Assembly: GCF_011039175.1 (NCBI RefSeq)
Contig: NZ_JAAKEN010000001.1
Location: 186,001-250,000 of the forward strand
Reading direction: 5' to 3'
Source of the DNA: Slackia sp. ZJ119
Lineage (GTDB): Bacteria > Actinomycetota > Coriobacteriia > Coriobacteriales > Eggerthellaceae
DNA length: 64,000 nucleotides
Part shown: one piece after another, positions 4,630 through 39,754 of the stretch
How the letters are laid out: each line of letters begins with the position of its first letter
How positions within the stretch are numbered: the first letter of the stretch is position 1
Translations under genes and position numbers: made by a program
Notes under the pieces: model-generated
The model's database searches: none
What the model was told of the DNA's origin: nothing
Seen by the model: the letters and a program-made list of their open reading frames with translations, nothing else

Positions 4630-5319
4630 GTGCAGGGCTTGCAGGACAGGCGAAGCGACGAAGCCGAGGTCGAACGTGGCGTGCGGCGCGGTCTCGAATG
4701 CGAAAGCGAGGCGGCGCGCGCGGTGCTCGACTGCGTGCTGAAGGCGCATGAAACGTGGTTCGACGTGACGCGCACGTGCGAATTCGCCGGCCGCACGTTT
4801 GCAGGCTATGCGGAATTTCACTCGGAAGCCGAACAATACATGCTGGTCAAACGTGCGAAGCTGTGGGGCGTCAACACGCACGAATACCTCTTCTTCGACG
4901 TGCGCCGCCGTCTTGACGCCGACGCGTTCGCCGAACTCGTGCGCTTCATGACCACCGAGGCGCTCGCGAAAGTGCGCCCCAACCCCGAGCACATGACCTC
5001 GTACGTGTCGCTCGTGGTCGTGGCCGACGAAGTGGCGCCGGGCCTCGACAAGCCCATCAGGCGCACGCGGTTTCGCAAGAACTTCCGACTGGGCTTGCAG
5101 GGCTGGGCCGACCTTCGCGTGGCCGTCGTCGATCTGGCTCGGACGACCGTCATAACCAATGCCAGGGGCGAAGAGCTGCGGGCGACGCTGTGCAACAATG
5201 CGGAAGCGGCGCTCGGATGTTCGTTTGACCAGCGGAAACGGCGCACAACGTCGCGCTCCGCCCGAGGGGGCCGTGCAACTCACGACGCTCTCGACGAACA
5301 GGCGGCACGCTTGAAGTGA
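4630..5319 (+). CDS. Conserved protein of unknown function
   Basis: A 229-aa soluble protein. GTG 4630 is preferred because GGAGG lies at 4615-4619; the frame is open upstream to 4417, but that stretch looks non-coding. The central part is compact and looks conserved: AHETWFDVTR, GYAEFHSEAEQYMLVKRAKL, THEYLFFDV and FRKNFRLGLQGWADLRVAVVDL. From memory, similar proteins of unknown function occur in anaerobic Firmicutes and Coriobacteriia. No catalytic motif was recognised. The last 40 residues are Arg/Ser-rich and probably disordered. It is followed 93 bp later by cstA on the same strand. Confidence 0.75.
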   Translation: MQGLQDRRSDEAEVERGVRRGLECESEAARAVLDCVLKAHETWFDVTRTCEFAGRTFAGYAEFHSEAEQYMLVKRAKLWGVNTHEYLFFDVRRRLDADAFAELVRFMTTEALAKVRPNPEHMTSYVSLVVVADEVAPGLDKPIRRTRFRKNFRLGLQGWADLRVAVVDLARTTVITNARGEELRATLCNNAEAALGCSFDQRKRRTTSRSARGGRATHDALDEQAARLK

Positions 5320-7185: not shown

Positions 7186-7218
7186 GAAGGGCGGCGAGGC
7201 CGAGCCCCGCCGCCCTTC
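7186..7218 (+). terminator. Hairpin downstream of cstA
   Basis: An 11-bp perfect stem (GAAGGGCGGCG at 7186-7196, complement at 7208-7218) lies just after the cstA stop. A second small stem GCCGGC...GCCGGC follows at 7232-7252, between cstA and the convergent HTH gene. It lacks a T tract. Confidence 0.55.
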
Positions 7219-7281
7219 CCGAAACGCAGCAACGCCGGCCCGTGCGAGCCGGCGTTGTCGAGGCGAAAAGAAGGAGAGAGA

Positions 7282-7479
7282 CTACTGCGGCGTGACTTTC
7301 TTCGGGCGACCGACCTTGCGCGGCGAGTCGCGGTATGCAATCACGTCGTCGACCTCAAACGCCCACGCATTCCCGAATTTCTTCGCGCGAATGGTGCCCG
7401 CAATGGCAAGCTGACGCATGCGGGCGCCGCTGACGCCGACAATCTTTGCAGCTTCCTTGATGTCAACCATTTCTCCCAT
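7282..7479 (-). CDS. Small helix-turn-helix (excisionase/MerR-like) DNA-binding protein
   Basis: A 65-aa protein consisting of a single winged HTH of the excisionase/MerR type: VDIKEAAKIVGVSGARMRQL, then a wing with GNAWAFEVDDVIAYRD and a basic tail VGRPKKV. The ATG at 7479 was chosen because AAGGA lies 8 bases upstream; an ATG at 7497 is possible. Such proteins can be accessory excision factors or small regulators. The region behind it (to 8453) has no gene but carries repeats and a MITE-like element, which could be debris of a mobile region. No integrase is present, so a mobile origin is speculation. Confidence 0.75.
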   Translation of the reverse strand: MGEMVDIKEAAKIVGVSGARMRQLAIAGTIRAKKFGNAWAFEVDDVIAYRDSPRKVGRPKKVTPQ

Positions 7480-7497
7480 GATCAAGTCCTTCCGCAT

Positions 7498-7780
7498 GTA
7501 CCAATTTCGTACCTCGGTGAAGCTCCACCGATGATCGCGCTTGTAAAGCGTGGTCTATACGTTACCAAAATGAAAACATATGTCAATGGCTGATAGTTCG
7601 TATCATGCGTCATATATTGTTCATCATAGGTAATAATTACATAACAGATCGTCTACAGACCTTGACTTTCGGATAGAAGGTAGTGCATTTCTGCCCAAAC
7701 GCAAGCATCACCCGGGGGGAGCGTTGAATATGCCGGGTTGAGCGGCGCGGCGTCGAGTGCAGCGTCCGGAGGCGGCGGCG
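7498..7780. other. Gene-free, locally AT-rich stretch upstream of the HTH gene
   Basis: About 280 bp without a credible gene. It includes the presumed promoter of the minus-strand HTH gene, with the paired motif GGTAC-N8-GGTAC at the start of the region (7498-7514) as a possible operator. It is clearly more AT-rich near 7555-7650 than the neighbouring genes. Confidence 0.4.
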
Positions 7781-7789
7781 GAATGCGGA

Positions 7790-8095
7790 GAAGGGTTTGA
7801 CAGGGGGCGTCGCAGCACGTGGAGAGTAGCAGCGCGTGGGGGCAGCAGCGCGTGGGAGGTAGCATGGATCGCTGTGGCAGCACGTGGAGAGCGGCAGCGC
7901 GTGGGTGGCGGCGCGAGCGACGCGGCGGCACGTGGAGAGTAACAGCGCAGGGGGGGCAGCGTGAGGTGGGGCAGCAGCGCGTTGGGGCAGCATGCGGAAC
8001 GTCGCAGAAGCACGTGGGGGGCGGCGCGAGCGACGCGGCAGCACGGGAGGCGGCGGCATGGGGCGCCGTGGCATGTGGAGGGGCGGCATGGGAGC
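7790..8095. repeat. Imperfect tandem-like GC-rich repeat tract
   Basis: The plus strand is built from repeated short units: GCAGCACGTGGAGAG recurs at about 7807, 7880 and 7927, GCAGCGCGTGGG recurs several times, and GGCGGCGCGAGCGACGCGGC occurs twice (about 7908 and 8015). Open frames on both strands follow from the repeat composition (Arg, Ser, Ala, Cys and Pro runs) and are not credible genes. The tract directly abuts a MITE-like element at 8103. Confidence 0.6.
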
Positions 8096-8102
8096 AGTTT
8101 TA

Positions 8103-8334
8103 TGTGAAGATTGTGTGTACCGGAGATTTTTGGTGGCAAATGAGCTGCTTGTCGCATCATTTTGCCGAAAATCGACACTCTGATGGCCGAAAAAGCCAGC
8201 AAAATCGCTTCGATCGGCCAAAAACTGCGGTATATATCCGTAATCTTCCAATCGACAGGGCTTGTTTCAGCGGAAAATGATGCGCGAAGCGGCTAAAACC
8301 GCTCGTAAAATCTCCAACACACAAATTTTTCACA
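8103..8334. mobile_element. MITE-like long inverted-repeat element, copy 1
   Basis: A non-coding element of 232 bp. The outer 28 bp at 8103-8130 and 8307-8334 are inverted repeats matching at 22 of 28 positions, ending in GGAGATTTT. The inverted similarity continues inward: GCTGCTT and GCATCATTTT on the left have partners on the right, so the unit could fold into a long imperfect hairpin. A related element with the same ends lies at 28290-28543. There is no ORF and no obvious target duplication. It is called MITE-like on structure; the mobilising transposase is not in the window. Confidence 0.65.
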
Positions 8335-8453
8335 TTTGGAGCCGGAATTTCGGGCGGATCGCCCTCTTTCAGCACCAAGCCGGGATTCCGGGATGGCTCT
8401 CCCTCTTTCCCTGGCATTCCGAAGCACCGCGCCAGGGCCTTGCCCCATGTCCC

Positions 8454-30767: not shown

Positions 30768-31652
30768 GTGCTGTTCAGCTGGTACATCATCTGGTATCTG
30801 TTTCTGGCGGGGGCGGGCAGTGGCGCGTTCCTCGTTTCGGCGTGCTGCTGCATGTACGACGCTTTGCATCCCACGCCTGACAGCCTACGGGCGGTGGCCG
30901 TCTCCCGCTACGGATTCTATGCCACGCCTGTGCTCATGGCTGCTTCGGTGCTCATGCTCGTGTTCGATCTGGGGCGCCCCGACCGCGTTTGGACCATCGT
31001 GCTCTCCCCGCTGCAGTCGGTGCTCTCCATGGGCGCGTGGCTGGTGGCCATTCTTGCGGCAGTGTCGACGGTCGCGGTGCTGCTGGCAGTGCTGAGCAGG
31101 AGCGTTTCCCGCATGCTGCTGTGGACGCTCTACGTGGCGGGGTCGTTGGCCGCTATCGGTGTCATGACCTACACGGGCCTGCTGCTCTCGGACATGACTT
31201 CCATCGACTTCTGGCACACTCCGTGGCTCGTCGTGCTGTTCGCAGCGTCGTCCGTCTCTACGGGCAGCGCGGTCATCATTGCCCTGGGTTCGGTGTTCAC
31301 GGCCTGCCCGCTCGCCCTTTCCCGCGGTCTTTGGCATGCGGCAGGTGTGGTGTGCGCCGTCGAGGCGGTGGCGCTGTCGGTGTTCGTTGTGTCGCAGAGC
31401 GGCTACACCGAGATCTCGCTGGAGTCGTGCCTGATGGTGGTGGCGGGGTATCTCGCTCCCGTGTTCTGGTGCGGGGTGGTGGGCGCGGGCTTGGTGGTGC
31501 CGGCGTTCGCCCATGCCGCATCGCGCCGACGGGTGAAATCTTCGGCCGCGCTGGTGTCGTCGGCCGGATCGCTCGTCGGGGGCCTGGCGTTGCGCTACTG
31601 CGTGATAGAGGCCGCCCTGTTCACGCCCATGCTTCCAGGGGCGGTGCTATGA
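30768..31652 (+). CDS. NrfD/PsrC-like membrane quinone-interacting subunit
   Basis: A 294-aa protein with about eight membrane helices. GTG 30768 follows GAGGAATGCC. The start WYIIWYLFLAGAGSGAFLVS and the later FDLGRPDRVW match the NrfD/DmsC/PsrC family, which passes electrons between the quinone pool and periplasmic iron-sulphur subunits. No ferredoxin or molybdenum subunit lies in the same transcript. Instead the stop overlaps a GntR regulator start by ATGA, followed by an SPFH protein. It lies 1.8 kb upstream of a full molybdoenzyme operon that has its own NrfD, so it may be an additional or alternative quinone module. Confidence 0.8.
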   Translation: MLFSWYIIWYLFLAGAGSGAFLVSACCCMYDALHPTPDSLRAVAVSRYGFYATPVLMAASVLMLVFDLGRPDRVWTIVLSPLQSVLSMGAWLVAILAAVSTVAVLLAVLSRSVSRMLLWTLYVAGSLAAIGVMTYTGLLLSDMTSIDFWHTPWLVVLFAASSVSTGSAVIIALGSVFTACPLALSRGLWHAAGVVCAVEAVALSVFVVSQSGYTEISLESCLMVVAGYLAPVFWCGVVGAGLVVPAFAHAASRRRVKSSAALVSSAGSLVGGLALRYCVIEAALFTPMLPGAVL

Positions 31653-32050
31653 CCGCCTCCGATCGCTTCGTGCAGATAACCATAGACGAGAGCAACGGCA
31701 TTCCCATTTGGCTGCAGTTGCGCAATCGTCTCATCTATCTCATCACCTCGGGCGTGTTCCGGGTGGGCGACAAGCTGCCCACTGTTCGTGAGATGGCGGT
31801 CGACCTGGGAATCAACTACAACACGGTCAGCAAGGTGTATCAGGACATCGAGCGCGACGGTTACATCGTGTCGAAGCGCGGGCGCGGCACTTTCGTGCAC
31901 GACGCCTATCTGGCAATGGAAGGATCGGCGCTCGACGCCGTCGACTCGCTGGCCGATTCGTTCATCCAACAGTGTCGGGAGCTGGGAGTTCCTCGGGGAG
32001 ACATAATCCCGCTGGTTGAGAAACGTCTCAAGGCCGCAGGAGGCGAGTAG
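31649..32050 (+). CDS. GntR-family (YtrA-type) transcriptional regulator
   Basis: A 133-aa regulator starting at ATG 31649, overlapping the NrfD-like stop by 4 bases (translational coupling). Winged HTH of the GntR class: IPIWLQLRNRLIYLITSGVF, DKLPTVREMAVDLGINYNTV, then SKRGRGTFV. A short C-terminal helical tail of about 55 residues (LADSFIQQCRELGVPRGDI), with no large effector domain, is typical of the YtrA subfamily, which usually controls its own operon of membrane proteins. It probably regulates the NrfD-GntR-SPFH unit, possibly also the reductase operon downstream. Confidence 0.9.
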   Translation: MTASDRFVQITIDESNGIPIWLQLRNRLIYLITSGVFRVGDKLPTVREMAVDLGINYNTVSKVYQDIERDGYIVSKRGRGTFVHDAYLAMEGSALDAVDSLADSFIQQCRELGVPRGDIIPLVEKRLKAAGGE

Positions 32051-33444: not shown

Positions 33445-35955
33445 ATGTCAGGTATGAAAAGCTCTCAGGGCGCTATAACCCGCCGGAGCTTCCTGAAGAC
33501 CACCGCCGCAGTGGGCACCGTGGCAGCATGCTCCGGCCTTGCGGTGGGCAGCGTCGCTCTGGCGGCCGCCGACGAGGCGGCCGAGCAAAACGGAGAGCAG
33601 ACGTTCGCCTCGTTTTGCCGCGGCAACTGCGGCAGCTCCGGTTGCAATCTCAACGTGCACGTGCGCGAGGGCAAGGTGGTGCGCGTGAATTCGCTGCCGT
33701 TTTCCGATGCCGACCCTAAGACCAAGGGTCGCAGCCGCATCTGCCTGCGCGGTATGAGCAACGTCTATCGCTTGTACTCGCCGCAGCGCATCGATTACCC
33801 CATGCGCCGCGTCGAGGGCACGCCCCGCGGAGGCGGCGAGTGGGAGCGCATCAGCTGGGAAGAGGCGATCAAACAGATCACCGACACCTGGAAGGGGATC
33901 ATTGAGGCCGACGGCCCCAGCGCCATCGCCGGCTGGACCATCTACGGCAACTCCGCCACGCTTCAAGGCATCTTCGGCCTCGGCTACGCTCGCTTGGCCA
34001 CCCTGCTGGGCATGAGCACCATCTCCAACGGTGCCGACATGGGGCAGATCTACTCGGGCGCTGCGCTGGCCGCCAGCCTCGGCGTGGGCGCTTCGGGTCC
34101 GAACCTGGCCGCCCATGCGCGCAACATCGTGCTCTGGGGTGCCAACTCGGCCGTCACGTGGCCGCACGAGTGGCGCTACATGCTCGATGCCCAGGCCAAC
34201 GGTGCCAAGATCACGTTGATAGACCCCAACGTCTCCATCACCGCCGCGAAGGTTGACAACCACGTGCGCATCCGTCCGTGCACCGACAGTGCGCTTTTGA
34301 TGGGCATGTGCAACTACATCATTCAGAACGACCTTGTCGACACCGAGTTCGTGCTCGCGCGTACCAACGGCCCGTGCCTGGTGAAGCAGGATGACGGCCT
34401 CATCCTGCGCGGCAGTGACTTCGGCAAGGAGTTCGAGGTGCTTGGGGCCATGCCCTATTCATGGCAGCCCATCACCACCGACTCTCCCTACGTGTGGGAC
34501 ACCGAGAAGAAAGAAGCGGTACCGGCCGATGAGGCCGCCGCGCCGGCTCTGACGGGCTCCTACACCGTGAACGGCAAGAAGTGCACCACCGCTTTCGACA
34601 TGCTCAAGGAGCGCGTGGCGGACTGGTCGCTCGAACGCACGGCCGAGGTGTGCGACATCACGCCCGAGGAGATCGTGATGTTGGCCGACTGCTACGTGAA
34701 CGGCCCCACCATGTCGGCTTTGGCCAACGGCCCAGGGCACTACTCCACCAGTTGGGACTACTTCTTCGGCACCTACGAGCTGACCATGCTTACCGGCAAT
34801 CTGTTCCGTCCTGGCGCCGGTTGGGCCAACACCGGTCAGACCATGACTGGCATCTGGTCGCCTGACACCTCCTACGGCGTGCCTGAGAATGCCATCACCG
34901 GCCCCGAATACTCGGTGCTCGACTTGCCCGAGATCCAGCAGACGGGCACTTACCTGGGCAAGCCCGCAACGGTGAAGAGCGCCATCATCCACTCGGCCAA
35001 CCCGCTAGGCAACTCGCCCGACCGCAAGCGGCTGCTCGAGGCCGTCGATGCCATGGACCTTCTGGTCGTCGTTGACATGAACGAGACCGACTCTACGCGC
35101 TACGCCGACATCGTGCTGCCCTGCACGCACTGGTTTGAGTGCGACGACATCGCCGGATTCAACTGTAACCCCTATACGTTTATCGGCGAGAAGGCTGTCG
35201 AGCCCATGTTCGAGCACAAGAGCGACTACCAGATCACCCGGTTGCTGGCCGAGGGCATGGGCTTCGGCGACAAGTTCAAGAAGGAAGACCTCGAAGTGCT
35301 CGAGGAGAGCGTGAACAAGGGTGTGCAGCCTGACGCGAACGGCAACCCCATCACGTGGGAGCGTCTCAAGAAGGAGAAGAACATCCGCACGATTCCCGAC
35401 GACTACTACGATCCGTCGGTCATCGTCCCCGACGGCCGTCTGATGATGTACTGGGAGCATCCGGCCGCGCGTCTGACCGGCAAGGAGATCGACGTGGTGC
35501 AGGAGCGCCTGCCGCACTTCGAGCCGCCCAACGAGGCCTGGCCTGAAGATGTGCCTGGCTATCCGAAGAATTCCCTTGCTGACAAGTATCCGATCATCCT
35601 CATGAACATCCATGCGCGCCTCTCCACGCATACCACGTACAACCACATCGCATGGCTCACCGAATTGCGTCCCGAGCCGTTCGTCAACTTGAACACCGAG
35701 GATGCGAAGGAGCGCGGCATTGCCCAGGGCGACCTTGTGAAGGTGTTCAACGACCGCGGTTACGTGATCGTTAAAGCTCAGATCGACGGAGGCCTGAGGA
35801 AGGGCATTGCAAACCTGCCCCACGGATGGGAGGCCGACCAGTTCATCGAGGGACACTACCAGGATCTCACCCCGCGTGCGTCCAATCCTGTCGACGACAA
35901 CGAATGCTACTTCGACTGTCTGTGCCAGGTCGAGAAATACGAAGGAGGGAAGTAG
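33445..35955 (+). CDS. Tat-exported molybdopterin oxidoreductase, DMSO-reductase family catalytic subunit
   Basis: An 836-aa protein, ATG 33445 with GAGGAGAGG upstream. The Tat signal has RRSFLK at residues 13-18 and a hydrophobic stretch to about residue 40. A [4Fe-4S] site is formed by C58-x3-C62-x4-C67 and C100 (SRICLRG). The molybdopterin core follows (EEAIKQITDTWKGI, GADMGQIYSG, IVLWGANSAVTWPHEW, ATVKSAIIHSANPLGNSPDR, DIVLPCTHWFECDD). The dinucleotide-binding domain lies at the C-terminus (ILMNIHARLSTHTTYNHIAW, GIANLPHGWE). The protein acts outside the membrane as a reductase. The substrate cannot be named, and the molybdenum ligand could not be assigned by eye. It is the first gene of a six-gene operon. 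Confidence 0.92.
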   Translation: MSGMKSSQGAITRRSFLKTTAAVGTVAACSGLAVGSVALAAADEAAEQNGEQTFASFCRGNCGSSGCNLNVHVREGKVVRVNSLPFSDADPKTKGRSRICLRGMSNVYRLYSPQRIDYPMRRVEGTPRGGGEWERISWEEAIKQITDTWKGIIEADGPSAIAGWTIYGNSATLQGIFGLGYARLATLLGMSTISNGADMGQIYSGAALAASLGVGASGPNLAAHARNIVLWGANSAVTWPHEWRYMLDAQANGAKITLIDPNVSITAAKVDNHVRIRPCTDSALLMGMCNYIIQNDLVDTEFVLARTNGPCLVKQDDGLILRGSDFGKEFEVLGAMPYSWQPITTDSPYVWDTEKKEAVPADEAAAPALTGSYTVNGKKCTTAFDMLKERVADWSLERTAEVCDITPEEIVMLADCYVNGPTMSALANGPGHYSTSWDYFFGTYELTMLTGNLFRPGAGWANTGQTMTGIWSPDTSYGVPENAITGPEYSVLDLPEIQQTGTYLGKPATVKSAIIHSANPLGNSPDRKRLLEAVDAMDLLVVVDMNETDSTRYADIVLPCTHWFECDDIAGFNCNPYTFIGEKAVEPMFEHKSDYQITRLLAEGMGFGDKFKKEDLEVLEESVNKGVQPDANGNPITWERLKKEKNIRTIPDDYYDPSVIVPDGRLMMYWEHPAARLTGKEIDVVQERLPHFEPPNEAWPEDVPGYPKNSLADKYPIILMNIHARLSTHTTYNHIAWLTELRPEPFVNLNTEDAKERGIAQGDLVKVFNDRGYVIVKAQIDGGLRKGIANLPHGWEADQFIEGHYQDLTPRASNPVDDNECYFDCLCQVEKYEGGK

Positions 35956-35957
35956 CC

Positions 35958-36578
35958 ATGAGAATGGGAATGGTGATCGACCTGCATCGATGCGTCGGGT
36001 GCCACACCTGCTCGGTTGCTTGCAAGGTGGCCAACAACGTCCCGAAGGAAACGTGGTGGAACCGCGTGCTCACCGATGGGGGAGAGGCCATCGATACCCT
36101 GGGCGGCGAATACCCCAACGCCTCCATCAAGTTTTTCCCGGTCAGCTGCCAGCATTGCGAGAACCCGGCCTGCGTGAAGGTGTGCCCTGTGGGCGCCACC
36201 TACAAAGACCCAGCCACCGGCATTGTGCGCCAGGACTACGACAAGTGCATCGGCTGCCGCATGTGCATGGCGGCATGCCCTTACACCGGCGTGCGCTCGT
36301 TCAACTGGGAAGAGCCTCAGAACTACCTTGATCACAATTTGGGCGACGCCGACGCGCCGGAGCACCAGAAGCACGTGGTGGAGAAGTGCACCTTCTGCTA
36401 CCAGCGTCAGGCCCGTGGCGAAGAGCCCGCATGCATGGAGCTGTGCATGGCCCGCGCCCGTTTCTGGGGCGACTTGGACGATCCTGAGTCCGACGTGTTC
36501 AAACTGGTGCATAGCCGCGAATCGATAACGCTTCTGCCCGAGAAGGGCACGAAGCCCTCTGTCTACTACCTTGTCTAG
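35958..36578 (+). CDS. DmsB-like four-cluster [4Fe-4S] ferredoxin subunit
   Basis: A 206-aa electron-transfer subunit. ATG 35958 follows GGAGGGAAG, two bases after the previous stop. Four cysteine groups ligate four [4Fe-4S] clusters: C12-VG-C-HT-C-SVA-C, then CQHCENPACVKVCPVGA, CIGCRMCMAACPYTGVR, and CTFCYQRQARGEEPACMELC. It has no signal peptide and would be co-exported with the Tat catalytic subunit, as in DmsAB. It carries electrons from the NrfD anchor to the molybdenum subunit. Confidence 0.95.
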   Translation: MRMGMVIDLHRCVGCHTCSVACKVANNVPKETWWNRVLTDGGEAIDTLGGEYPNASIKFFPVSCQHCENPACVKVCPVGATYKDPATGIVRQDYDKCIGCRMCMAACPYTGVRSFNWEEPQNYLDHNLGDADAPEHQKHVVEKCTFCYQRQARGEEPACMELCMARARFWGDLDDPESDVFKLVHSRESITLLPEKGTKPSVYYLV

Positions 36579-36596
36579 CGGGAAAGGGAACGAACA

Positions 36597-37829
36597 ATGA
36601 CTGAGAACGTTGCGGCTGCTACCGCCGCTTCGGCTCCCTCCAGGAGCGCATCATACGCCCGCGCGGGTGGGAAAGGCCTGACGATCGGTATTGTCATCGC
36701 TGCTGCCGTCACCGTCGTCGGCATCGCCCTATGGGTCATGCAGCTGTCTGGCGGCCTCGTGCAGACCGGCATGCGCAACCTCGACTCGTGGGGCCTGTAC
36801 ATCACCGGCTTCATGTTCTTCGTGGGCCTCTCGGCCGGCGGCCTGATCATTTCCTCGGTGCCCAAAGCCTTCGGGGTCTCCGGGTTCGGAGGCATCTCCA
36901 AGGTGGCCGTCATGACGTCCATAGCCTGTACGGTGGCGGCCATCGCCTTCGTGGTCATCGACCTCGGCCAGCCGCTGCGTGTGTGGGAATTGTTTTCCTC
37001 TTCGAACTTTTCCTCGCCTCTGATGTGGGACATCATCGTGCTGTTTGTGTACCTCATCCTGTCGGTGGTGTACCTGTGGGCGCAGATCCGCGCCGACTCC
37101 GGCGCCGTGTCGACAAAGGCGCTGCGCGTCGTGTCGGTGATGGCCCTAGTGTGCGCTGTCATGGTGCACTCCGTGACCGCCTGGGTCTTCTCTCTGCAGA
37201 TCGCCCACGAGTTCTGGTATACCGCCCTCCTGGGTCCCTGGTTCGTGGTCTCGGCGCTCGTGTGCGGCACCGCGCTCGTTATGATCGCGGCTGCGGCCTT
37301 GCGCGCTGCGGGCTACTTGCAGCTCGACGAGAAATACCTGGTGAAGATGGCGAAGCTGCTGGGCGTGTTCATTTGCGTCGACCTTTACTTCTTCGGTTGC
37401 GACTTGCTGACCTCAGGCTTCCCGGCGGGCGAAGGTGCCGCCGTGGTGGACATGCTCGTTTCTGGCCCGCTTTCAACCTTCTTCTGGGCGCAGATCGTGC
37501 TTTCGGTGGTGACCGCGGTTGTCTGCTTCGTGCCGGGGCTTCGCACTACGCCGCTTTTGATCGTCGCCTCCGCATGCGCCATTGTTGCCATCTTCCTCAA
37601 ACGCGTGCAGATTCTGGTGGGCGGCTTCCAGCTTCCCAACCTTGACCTGGCTGGTCCTTTGACCTCCCTGACCATCACCAACTGGAACGGCACTATGGCG
37701 TCGGCCTACAGCGGCATGGTGTACTTCCCCACGTCGATCGAATTCGGCATCGCGCTGGGCGTCATTGGACTCGGGTTCCTCATCTTCCTGCTTGGGCTGA
37801 AGCTGCTGCCGCTCAAGCCGGCAGAGTGA
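36597..37829 (+). CDS. NrfD/PsrC-type membrane anchor subunit
   Basis: A 410-aa integral membrane protein with about ten helices, starting at ATG 36597, 18 bp after the ferredoxin stop. Family features are WGLYITGFMFFVGLSAGGLI near residue 60, VVIDLGQPLRVWELF and a helix-rich C-terminal half. It probably oxidises menaquinol and hands electrons to the four-cluster ferredoxin. It is longer than NrfD (about 320 aa) and closer in size to the PsrC/DmsC-like anchors of Eggerthella relatives. A 264-bp gap without a gene follows. Confidence 0.9.
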   Translation: MTENVAAATAASAPSRSASYARAGGKGLTIGIVIAAAVTVVGIALWVMQLSGGLVQTGMRNLDSWGLYITGFMFFVGLSAGGLIISSVPKAFGVSGFGGISKVAVMTSIACTVAAIAFVVIDLGQPLRVWELFSSSNFSSPLMWDIIVLFVYLILSVVYLWAQIRADSGAVSTKALRVVSVMALVCAVMVHSVTAWVFSLQIAHEFWYTALLGPWFVVSALVCGTALVMIAAAALRAAGYLQLDEKYLVKMAKLLGVFICVDLYFFGCDLLTSGFPAGEGAAVVDMLVSGPLSTFFWAQIVLSVVTAVVCFVPGLRTTPLLIVASACAIVAIFLKRVQILVGGFQLPNLDLAGPLTSLTITNWNGTMASAYSGMVYFPTSIEFGIALGVIGLGFLIFLLGLKLLPLKPAE

Positions 37830-38093
37830 TGACCTCCCGTTTGCGGGTCGACGACGCAGGCTCTCCGTGCGCCTCCTTCTCTCGTGGCGCGTGGAGATGC
37901 GGCGGGACGCTCGATTCGCTGAGCTTCCGCGGCCTTCCCATGGACTGCGGAAAGCCTGCGTCCCACGGCCGACGGATGCGCACGTTCGTTTCTTCCATGT
38001 GGACGCGCCTTTCGCAGGTGGGAGCGTGTCGAAGAATGGCGAAGCGCGGGCTTGGCGTGTTCGACGCCCGTGCGAGCCGAGAAAGGCATCGGT
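37830..38093. other. Gap inside the reductase operon
   Basis: 264 bp between the anchor gene and the CX4CH gene. No convincing gene; frames through it are Arg-rich. No clear terminator. A weak promoter for the downstream three genes could be here, but none was assigned. Confidence 0.3.
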
Positions 38094-38453
38094 ATGCCGA
38101 AGAAACTACTCATCGTGCTGGCCGTTTTTCTCGTTGCGTGTGCGTGCGTGTTCGGCGTTGGCTCTGCGGCCGACTCCCAAGTGGGGCTGCCCCAGGCCAT
38201 CGTCCAGGAATCGGCGTGTCCCGTGGTGGGGTGCGTTTCAGGCTCGTGCCACGGGCTCGATGACGTGCCTGCGCCTGATGGCGTTCATGAACTGACGTGC
38301 CCCGAGGCCAGCTGCTCGTCGGTGGAGTGCCACGCATGGGATTCGCTGCTCGGTCGCTACTGCCAGGCTTCCGATGCCAGCCTGAACCTGTGGATCATGC
38401 TGCCGGTGCTTCTCGTGGTGGTGTCAGTGCTCTTGATCAAGAAAACGCGATAG
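38094..38453 (+). CDS. Small membrane protein with two CX4CH motifs, possible diheme c-type cytochrome
   Basis: A 119-aa protein, ATG 38094 with GAAAGGC upstream. The N-terminus is an export signal (LLIVLAVFLVACACVFGVGS); LVAC at 13-16 could also be a lipobox. The exported part (about 26-95) contains a duplicated pattern C-x4-C-x4-C-H at C42/C47/C52-H53 and C69/C74/C79-H80, giving two CX4CH motifs, the variant c-heme signature seen in some multiheme cytochromes. A C-terminal helix (LNLWIMLPVLLVVVSVLLI) anchors it. The position between quinone anchor and b-heme protein fits an electron-transfer role. Heme binding is inferred; zinc or disulfides are alternatives. Confidence 0.75.
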   Translation: MPKKLLIVLAVFLVACACVFGVGSAADSQVGLPQAIVQESACPVVGCVSGSCHGLDDVPAPDGVHELTCPEASCSSVECHAWDSLLGRYCQASDASLNLWIMLPVLLVVVSVLLIKKTR

Positions 38454-38463
38454 GAGGCAGCCT

Positions 38464-38961
38464 GTGAACGCGAAGAAGAGCTTGGTGCTCGACGGTCTGC
38501 TCGCTGTTGCCTTCGTGGCGTCGCTGGTTCCCAACCTCACAACCGTGGCTGGGCACGAATGGCTCGGCCTTGTGGTGACCCTGGCGTTCATCGTGCACTT
38601 TGCCGCACACCTGCGACTTTTGCCCGATCGCAACGGCCTGCGCGTGGCGAACCTCTGCGTGGACGGCATCGCTCTTGTAGTGTTGGCGACGTGCGCCGTG
38701 TCGGGCCTGCTGGTGTCGGGGGCTGTGTTGCCGGCGTTCGGCCTGTACGCAGAAGGGTACTTTTTTTGGGATCCGCTGCACGCCACGGCCGCCAAGGTGC
38801 TGCTTGCGCTGGTTGTGGTGCATCTGGCGTTGCACGTGAGGTTCATGACCGGTGCGCTGCGCCCGGGGTCGGGCTTGTCACGCAAGCGCGTTCAGACGTC
38901 CGGCAACACTCAAGGTTCGGAGCCGGCCCGCTGGCACGTGGAGCGCGGCGACCGCTCGTAA
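38464..38961 (+). CDS. DUF4405 membrane protein, b-type-heme-like
   Basis: A 165-aa protein, GTG 38464 with GGAGG upstream, 10 bp after the CX4CH gene. It has four membrane helices in cytochrome b561 style. Histidines sit in helices at LGLVVTLAFIVHFAAHLRL and DPLHATAAKVLLALVVVHLALHV, pairs suited to two b hemes. DUF4405 proteins often accompany periplasmic redox enzymes, and this one probably moves electrons across or along the membrane to the CX4CH protein or reductase. The last 30 residues are polar. Confidence 0.85.
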   Translation: MNAKKSLVLDGLLAVAFVASLVPNLTTVAGHEWLGLVVTLAFIVHFAAHLRLLPDRNGLRVANLCVDGIALVVLATCAVSGLLVSGAVLPAFGLYAEGYFFWDPLHATAAKVLLALVVVHLALHVRFMTGALRPGSGLSRKRVQTSGNTQGSEPARWHVERGDRS

Positions 38962-39094
38962 GGTGCCCGGCGCGACGTGGTTCTCTGGGTGGGTCTTTGG
39001 GTCGAGGCTTCTGCGTGCCTGGTTCGCATCTCGGCGAAGCGCACCTGGCGCAGGTGCGCACAATTCGGTGGCAACCGATTCGTCAGGAGGAATC

Positions 39095-39754
39095 ATGGAA
39101 GACGTGAATCGAAACTGGGCCACGCAGGCATCGGCGTGGGAATTGGCGGCTTTGTCGTTCACCTATCCGACGCCGGAACTTGCGGAAGCTGTGGCTTTGG
39201 GGGAGTGGGCTGACGCAGCGCTCGAAATCGCGAGGATGCTCGGTGCAGAAGTTGACGTGGCAGGCATTGAACAGGCACGTGAGCATATGGGCATGCCGGC
39301 CGACGAGTTGCTGTCGGCGCTTCGCGCAGATGCCACGCGGCTGTTTCTGATCGGGCGCACGCCTAAGGTGGCTCTGTACGAGGGCCTTTGGCGCGCACGG
39401 AGCGACGGCACCGACGTCCTGCTGTTTGTGAACCCGCATTCGGTGGAGGTGGAGCGCTTTGTGAAGAAGTGCGGTCTCGTGCGGGCCGAGGGCGAGGCGA
39501 ACGCGCCTTTCGACAGCGTCGCCGGCGAGTGCGCGCTGCTCGAGTATCTGGCCGGTGTGCAAGCCGGCATCATGGCGGTGGCCGGCGCATCGTCGCCCGA
39601 CGACCTTCCCGGAGGCTCGGCTCAAGCTGCCTACGAAGATTTCCTGCGGCAGCATGCTCGGGTGTGGCTGCCCCGCTTTGCCGAGGCCGTGGCCGCCGAA
39701 GCCCGCATTCCCTTCTACCGCGCCGCCGCAGTTTACTTGGCCGCGTTGTTGTAG
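39095..39754 (+). CDS. TorD/DmsD-family molybdoenzyme maturation chaperone
   Basis: A 219-aa cytosolic all-helical chaperone. ATG 39095 follows AGGAGGAATC; the longer frame upstream is not supported. TorD-fold features are YTRLFLIGRTPK-like spelling (ATRLFLIGRTPKVALYEGLW), ECALLEYLAGV in place of the EPxDH motif, and WLPRFAEAVAAEARIPFYRA near the end. It would bind the Tat signal and help insert the molybdenum cofactor of the catalytic subunit at 33445. As last gene of the operon it confirms that the whole set makes one enzyme. Confidence 0.9.
   Translation: MEDVNRNWATQASAWELAALSFTYPTPELAEAVALGEWADAALEIARMLGAEVDVAGIEQAREHMGMPADELLSALRADATRLFLIGRTPKVALYEGLWRARSDGTDVLLFVNPHSVEVERFVKKCGLVRAEGEANAPFDSVAGECALLEYLAGVQAGIMAVAGASSPDDLPGGSAQAAYEDFLRQHARVWLPRFAEAVAAEARIPFYRAAAVYLAALL

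Follow-up and report, generated by a model that had tools for sequence, protein, structure and literature searches.

A complex iron-sulfur molybdoenzyme locus of Slackia sp. ZJ119 with a conserved gene pair for a putative Dsr-like b/c heme branch

Several described membrane complexes share parts with the locus reported here. In DsrMKJOP the NrfD-type DsrP and the four-cluster DsrO occur together with the c-type DsrJ and the diheme b-type DsrM, and for this complex two hypothetical sites for quinone as well as a quinone cycle have been proposed (accessible part of PMC8076601). The catechol dehydroxylases Dadh, Cadh and Hcdh of Eggerthella lenta consist of a head exported by twin-arginine translocation (Tat), a ferredoxin and a membrane anchor, as given in the accessible parts of PMC7028382 and PMC11574389, and the gene composition of the glucocorticoid 21-dehydroxylase cluster Elen_2451-2454 is available from a commentary (accessible part of PMC11835702). 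Here we analyzed a 64,000-nt stretch of Slackia sp. ZJ119 (NZ_JAAKEN010000001.1, positions 186,001-250,000; hereafter the window, in whose positions its coordinates are given). It carries genes for a catalytic molybdopterin subunit (MoCat), an iron-sulfur (Fe-S) subunit, an NrfD-type membrane subunit, a tethered cysteine-rich protein with CPX3CX4CH units (the CX4CH protein), a DUF4405 membrane protein and a TorD/NarJ-type chaperone. These six genes at 33445-39754, all on the same strand, had been put forward in an original prediction, and our analysis confirmed them. Pfam backs five of the six gene products, the CX4CH protein being the unmatched one.

Like DsrMKJOP of sulfate reducers, the locus has a ferredoxin, an NrfD subunit, a putative c protein and a putative b protein, and DsrO and DsrP are among the best NCBIfam matches. 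The Fe-S subunit scores best with ArrB (188.7 bits) and then with DsrO (184.8 bits against a cut-off of 200), each below its cut-off, and the best match of the NrfD subunit is DsrP (137.6 bits against 350); no DsrK was found among the nine proteins scanned. Unlike in DsrMKJOP, a Tat molybdoenzyme replaces DsrK, two CPX3CX4CH units stand against three DsrJ hemes and the b protein is of the DUF4405 type. The locus shares the Tat catalytic subunit, the four-cluster subunit, the NrfD anchor and TorD with DmsABC, PsrABC and ArrABC, but these are without the b/c pair. Type II dimethyl sulfoxide (DMSO) reductases resemble it in that the best solved relatives of the catalytic subunits are PcrA (perchlorate reductase) and EbdA (ethylbenzene dehydrogenase), with 420 and 336 bits for a profile of 26 subunits, in an aspartate at the same place and in a TorD protein nearest to a type II chaperone model; they differ in that the anchor here is NrfD and in that MoCat does not reach the cut-off of TIGR03479 (type II DMSO reductase; 292 against 984.75 bits). 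Nor does it reach that of TIGR02166 (DmsABC; 261 against 777.7 bits), and among the matches listed (25 of 28) there is no NCBIfam model whose cut-off it attains. Dadh, Cadh and Hcdh have the same combination of Tat head, ferredoxin and anchor and come from the same bacterial family, but no b/c pair is described for them in the accessible parts of PMC7028382 and PMC11574389. With an exported Mo subunit bearing an N-terminal Fe-S motif, a 16-Cys four-cluster ferredoxin, an NrfD anchor and TorD, the locus shows the general features of a complex iron-sulfur molybdoenzyme (CISM); we regard it as a CISM reductase extended by a putative Dsr-like b/c branch and not as categorically new. A literature search, with most subscription papers beyond its reach, recognised no published description of the pair or the locus, and the pair is not mentioned in the accessible part of PMC9686372.

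We investigated the conservation of the pair formed by the CX4CH gene and the DUF4405 gene in 70 copies, namely those of 68 loci from one scan of named genomes (L084 holding two) and that of the window. We observed that the DUF4405 gene lies next to the CX4CH gene in 69 of the 70 copies, the exception being a locus (L110) that ends there, and that by the chosen starts 63 of these 69 have the two genes overlapping or separated by no more than 15 nt. An NrfD gene is located upstream on the same strand in 66/70 copies, and the other four (L054, L116, L117 and L118) begin at contig ends. The distance between the NrfD and CX4CH genes is at most 600 nt in 60 of the 66, and in four of the remaining six a radical SAM gene intervenes. 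Wherever the flanks are long enough, the CX4CH genes of the 68 scan loci lie inside this operon type; these loci include Gordonibacter, Adlercreutzia, Rubneribacter, Enteroscipio, Paraeggerthella, Slackia, Parvibacter, Enterorhabdus and Eggerthella sinensis. E. lenta is not among them, and a direct look at the putative E. lenta DSM 2243 genome revealed two complete operons. This conservation of the pair with the reductase is not due to chance, and the outcome which the original prediction had named as speaking against it, a pair that is not conserved with the reductase in relatives, did not occur.

The CX4CH protein was found in 14 of 60 relatives including the window genome, all of them among the 36 members of the window's family (0 of the 24 others). 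Within Coriobacteriia it is present in 51 of 396 genomes, three of them with weak matches (E 8e-5 to 4e-4), and there are up to three copies per genome; no plasmid copies were found. A wider spread across the phylum was not borne out in a phylum-wide sample, in which the protein occurs in 8 of 396 genomes, all eight from the window's family. In the 60 relatives we distinguished a close class of NrfD proteins, i.e. near full-length matches of at least 57% identity (n = 32), from a distant class with 29-51% identity (n = 45). The CX4CH gene follows 23 of the 32 close matches and none of the 45 distant ones; seven close matches are not followed by it and two are cut by contig ends (G020:C9 and G007:C269:591). 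Seven close-class NrfD fragments were excluded from both counts, one of which (G019:C10) has the pair after it. One genome of stated 99% completeness (G001) contains a close-class module and no CX4CH match anywhere. The heme branch that had been proposed as an addition to the enzyme is supported as far as its conservation with the reductase is concerned, but these pair-less operons and the pairs without reductase described below show that it is not a fixed enzyme part.

The pair-less operons do not form one clade. The test comprised ten pair-less rows, two of which (L162 and L168_588) are merely cut by contig ends, and L167 was excluded as too short. On the catalytic tree 9 changes were counted (153 of 500 shuffles were as low) and on the NrfD tree 8 changes (19 of 500), i.e. 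at most slight clustering. They are spread throughout the catalytic tree, with perhaps a slight grouping on the NrfD tree.

The CX4CH protein is composed of an N-terminal hydrophobic segment, a Cys domain and a C-terminal membrane helix (model helices 2-26 and 94-118). It had been predicted as a tethered CX4CH protein; the tether holds, but two CPX3CX4CH units are present where one was claimed. In an alignment of 67 sequences (three fragments of the 70 copies were excluded), C42, P43 and C47 of unit 1 and C79 and H80 of unit 2 are found in all 67, and C52 and H53 as well as C69, P70 and C74 in 66. M67 is nearly conserved (63/67, leucine in the window), as is Y89 (64 of 67), and S96, W100 and P104 of the C-terminal membrane helix are invariant in 62/62. 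In a wider set of 18 sequences that also takes in other families and orders the linker is variable, L230 is without the C-terminal helix and the sole invariant columns are C, P, C, C and H, twice, with both CH pairs kept in 18/18. In L111 the stretch between the units is absent, leaving a one-unit protein (4721-4996), as after repeat recombination; an assembly error is also possible. We observed no match of the CX4CH protein in Pfam or NCBIfam and no relative of its profile among PDB sequences at E <= 10, and since no family model was found for it, it is probably annotated as hypothetical. As expected of c-type cytochromes, CXnCH motifs are conserved, with both CH pairs kept and n mostly 4, and because C and H are adjacent the motif suggests that the protein binds heme c.

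Diheme cytochromes b carry two His pairs on two helices, 13-14 residues apart. The DUF4405 protein fits this pattern: in an alignment of 69 proteins H31, H45 and H106 are present in all, H120 in 68, and the spacings are 14 and 14 in 69/69. Its structure model (predicted local distance difference test, pLDDT, 84.7) contains four long helices with the His pairs on the second (23-50) and the fourth (99-132), so that the four-helix protein with helix histidines of the original prediction was borne out. The same 14 + 14 pattern is also found in the distant DUF4405 copies of L227 and L230. Using VIA-align we obtained Z 11.4 for E. coli FdnI, 11.1 for E. coli superoxide oxidase (CybB), 10.3 for a designed diheme protein and 9.2-10.2 for cytochrome b6. 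The protein resembles FdnI and CybB in its four helices and two His pairs, and differs from them in that no PDB sequence match at E <= 1 and no Foldseek match at E <= 0.001 was obtained. It is a probable diheme b protein because of the histidine pattern, more than because of the fold search.

Next to these two proteins we considered the maturation of c-type cytochromes (Ccm) in the carrier genomes. The window's own genome contains the operon CcmE-CcmF-ABC-CcmB-CcmC, whose CcmE has the motif KCPSKY, of the CXXXY type given in the accessible part of PMC9084895. A System I* Ccm makes holocytochromes without CcmG and CcmH (accessible part of PMC3601427); neither was seen in the own ccm stretch, and a genome-wide search for them was not made. 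By its gene content we assign the operon to System I* of c-type cytochrome maturation. ResB (System II) was found in 0 of 10 genomes, and the own genome has no ResB match. CcmE is present in 19 of the 21 pair-carrying genomes tested, and CcmF/C in 13 of 14 genomes with the pair versus 31 of 46 without it. The presence of Ccm is weak evidence, consistent with heme c on the CX4CH protein. Directly before the own ccm operon we recognized a cytochrome c3-like protein that mixes CX2CH, CX3CH and CX4CH motifs (L123 3681-4421). CcmE itself resembles a tandem of two CcmE domains (L123 4786-5451), with two matches in each of 20 CcmE genomes; the own CcmE has the CXXXY motif in the first domain alone, and a crude pattern found KCPSKY in 14 of the 20 genomes.

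The pair also occurs without the enzyme. Three Coriobacteriia outside the window's order (L227, L230 and L233) have it, and the 15-17 kb fetched from them contain no match to a molybdoenzyme, a ferredoxin or NrfD. At L227 (8143-14560) it lies downstream of genes for a Tat flavin adenine dinucleotide (FAD) reductase, a multiheme c protein and NuoL-like and NuoH-like proteins, and the pair may serve another respiratory complex there. In L230 and L233 the order is DUF4405 and then the CPX3CX4CH protein, which has one unit in L233. Since the pair is found without a reductase nearby and is absent from seven of the 32 close NrfD operons, we take it, judging from gene context, to be a portable module. 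The module may predate its employment in these operons, or it may be mobile.

By analogy with DsrMKJOP, we propose with a probability of about 0.5 that the pair would give the reductase a second, quinone-linked b-to-c heme route to the head, beside the usual menaquinol path and on a compound membrane base. The molybdoenzyme head (MoCat and the Fe-S subunit), located outside the cytoplasm, would sit on a base of NrfD, the diheme-b DUF4405 protein and the tethered protein, the latter bearing two covalent c hemes, one per CPX3CX4CH unit, and this base would work like the DsrMJOP part of DsrMKJOP. In the usual path electrons would pass from menaquinol through NrfD and the Fe-S clusters to Mo. In the added one the b hemes would connect the menaquinone pool with the c hemes by electron transfer across the membrane, and on the outer face the c hemes would exchange electrons with the head. 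We infer the heme content, the assembly into one physical complex, the direction (quinol to reductase being preferred) and an organic substrate. The second electron route of the original prediction is in line with the conserved pair, the diheme-type histidines and the System I* operon; what has to be qualified is how firmly the pair belongs to the enzyme, as it is portable and not fixed.

Several observations weigh against this reading. The seven close NrfD operons without the pair imply that it is not indispensable in cis. The spacing before CH, mostly 4 in the 67 CX4CH sequences, is 6 in unit 1 of four of them (L084a, L112, L114 and L115) and 5 in unit 2 of one (L107), and such variation is unusual for heme c. 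No invariant His, Met or Tyr is available as second heme ligand, the CP cysteines alone being invariant. In the model of the CX4CH protein the Cys domain is poorly predicted (block pLDDT 53-67, residues 41-100), and we set this model aside because of its low confidence. For the DUF4405 model, Foldseek gave 0 matches at the threshold named above, and unrelated bundles score alongside diheme proteins in VIA-align (designed drug binder Z 11.6, polycystin-2 Z 11.0). Of the two pair-carrying genomes without a CcmE match, G389 is 77% complete, and G009, with 98% stated completeness, has no CcmF/C match either. CcmF/C discriminates little, because it is also present in the 31 of 46 genomes without the pair.

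The pairs of L227, L230 and L233, which stand without molybdoenzyme genes, would also suit a free-standing conduit from the quinone to the outer face that is co-regulated with the reductase, is no subunit of it and supplies either soluble or other periplasmic partners or, in trans, several reductases. The same may be said of G020 and G007, which have five and three close modules without an adjacent pair (two of these eight are cut by contig ends) and carry their pairs, one and two, elsewhere. However, a shared trans conduit would not need up to three copies per genome, the scanned copies with enough flank follow NrfD on the same strand, mostly at the short distance given above, and the invariant S96, W100 and P104 look as if the C-terminal helix packs against a partner, so that we regard such a conduit as possible but somewhat unlikely. 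A bolder form of the proposed route starts from the same portability: the pair would be a portable b/c module of Coriobacteriia whose CP cysteines act as thiolate ligands of low-potential c hemes, and a quinone cycle under interchangeable heads, with one quinone site at NrfD and one at the b hemes, would make the reduction of dietary or host molecules energy-conserving. We hold this form to be decidedly doubtful.

It is unlikely, in our estimate, that the CX4CH protein is heme-free and that its units hold Fe-S clusters or zinc, or function in a disulfide relay or in maturing the head. Each unit has three Cys and one His, which together with the spacing of 4-6 and the missing match to a known cytochrome family would agree with this, but the adjacent C and H in both units are the heme c signature, the Sec-like N-terminus without Tat motif would imply that clusters are assembled outside, the DUF4405 partner resembles a b-heme protein and Ccm is present in most carriers. 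Very improbable is an ordinary DmsABC/PsrABC-type reductase whose pair is a dispensable assembly or stability accessory without electron-transfer role. The seven close modules without the pair (two more are cut) and G001 without any CX4CH match speak for dispensability; against it stand the strict conservation of the four DUF4405 histidines and of the ten CP/C/CH residues over class-wide distances.

We compared the parts of the locus by their mean pairwise identity in 71 operons of the close class, of which 61 have the pair and 10 lack it or are cut, and in a class B without the pair (n = 18). In the close class NrfD reaches 0.69 and the ferredoxin 0.68, compared to 0.38 for the catalytic subunit. 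A conserved base with a variable head is not unique to the pair-carrying class, as class B shows it too, less strongly (NrfD 0.63, ferredoxin 0.73, catalytic subunit 0.45). In the extreme case, two operons of one genome (G069), the NrfD proteins are 96% and the heads 34% identical. NrfD paralogs from one genome have an identity of 0.769, slightly above the 0.734 for those from other species in the same genus. We did not accept concerted evolution in the membrane part, with 79 of 2000 label shuffles reaching the NrfD value, 263 that of Fe-S, 546 that of CX4CH and 1186 that of DUF4405; because this signal is weak, we do not claim homogenisation within genomes.

Within the variable head, R13, R14, C58, C67, C100 and D198 are invariant in 55/55 MoCat sequences of at least 780 aa, and C62 is kept in 54. 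In the Fe-S subunit, 15 of the 16 Cys are invariant in 60/60 sequences and the sixteenth is kept in 59. D198 aligns by sequence with an Asp of PcrA and of EbdA, which we take to be the Mo ligand in these enzymes. The window head has 33 matches in the putative E. lenta DSM 2243 genome and 48 in Gordonibacter pamelaeae, some genes being counted twice. Large paralogs at 0.54-0.66 Mb of the putative E. lenta genome (760-1144 codons) match it with 57-103 bits, and we would guess, from gene number, that Dadh and Cadh are among them. That the head removes oxygen from an organic substrate is a reasonable guess and no more; the putative Asp-type active site, together with the gut reductases known from E. 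lenta, would point to a reductive dehydroxylation.

The features of the locus are listed in Table 1. A search for promoter- or terminator-like matches in the gap between the NrfD and CX4CH genes gave none, which decides neither way on separate transcription. In other loci a radical SAM gene lies in this gap (L077, 8856-9980; L079, L081 and L095), after DUF4405 (L068, L085, L088 and L089) or upstream of MoCat (L051, L058, L071, L076 and L099), and it is also found at L073, L164, L169, L172 and L176, of which L164 is an operon without the pair. Three copies were scanned and are below the cut-off of each NCBIfam model matched; the gene may go with the head and perhaps encodes a maturase. In L077 (Gordonibacter pamelaeae) the NrfD gene (7199-8424) runs across two reading frames and is broken or misread.

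Table 1. Positions of the genes, motifs and neighbouring genes of the locus in the window
Feature	Position	Strand	Basis
Second, smaller NrfD-like membrane protein, 294 aa	30768-31652	+	PF03916 E 1.5e-30
GntR-family regulator, overlaps 3' end of NrfD-like gene	31649-32050	+	family name from reading sequence
Band-7/SPFH membrane protein, 317 aa	32130-33083	+	PF01145 E 7.7e-33
MoCat, catalytic molybdopterin subunit, 836 aa	33445-35955	+	PF00384, PF01568, PF04879; Tat signal TRRSFLK
MoCat Fe-S motif C58/C62/C67/C100; candidate Mo ligand Asp198	within 33445-35955	+	alignment
Fe-S subunit, four-cluster ferredoxin, 206 aa, 16 cluster cysteines	35958-36578	+	PF13247 and others
NrfD-type membrane subunit, 410 aa	36597-37829	+	PF03916 E 5.3e-40
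264-bp gap between NrfD and CX4CH genes, no clear gene	37830-38093	.	
Tethered two-unit CPX3CX4CH protein, 119 aa	38094-38453	+	sequence, alignments, model
CX4CH unit 1, C42 P43 V V G C47 V S G S C52 H53, CPVVGCVSGSCH	38217-38252	+	alignment
CX4CH unit 2, C69 P70 E A S C74 S S V E C79 H80, CPEASCSSVECH	38298-38333	+	alignment
DUF4405 four-helix membrane protein, 165 aa, putative diheme b, H31/H45 + H106/H120	38464-38961	+	PF14358 E 2.3e-9
TorD/NarJ-type chaperone, 219 aa	39095-39754	+	PF02613 E 3e-13

The operon had been drawn too small: its six genes are real, but the three genes upstream of MoCat have to be added. In 41 CX4CH operons whose upstream DNA extends over 4.9 kb or more, we scored relatives of these genes within 4.7 kb upstream and found the NrfD-like gene in 27, GntR in 31 and band-7 in 30, with all three absent in 10, so that these genes are usually part of the locus. 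The trio stands before several different molybdoenzyme heads. It precedes two of the three class B operons with long flanks (L253 and L254, not L252), and it is found upstream of a molybdoenzyme-FeS-FdhD set in the putative E. lenta DSM 2243 genome (L251, 9424-11614). By gene content the latter looks like the E. lenta 21-dehydroxylase cluster Elen_2451-2454 introduced above and is a candidate for it. Our locus resembles this set in the NrfD-like, GntR and band-7 genes upstream of the head, with band-7 proteins 54% identical. It differs from it in the head (24% identical) and in that L251 has FdhD and neither NrfD nor the pair downstream; FdhD, which completes the row of band-7, MoCat, FeS and FdhD in the cluster, is not among the window proteins scanned by Pfam.

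Gut Eggerthellaceae carry dozens of molybdoenzymes, mostly without assigned substrate. A common electron-transfer base for many heads would offer one handle on them, the base telling how they are wired and the heads what is reduced. As two operons occur in the putative E. lenta DSM 2243 genome, the idea is testable in a culturable strain, and the wiring bears on whether these reductases merely dispose of electrons or may also conserve energy.

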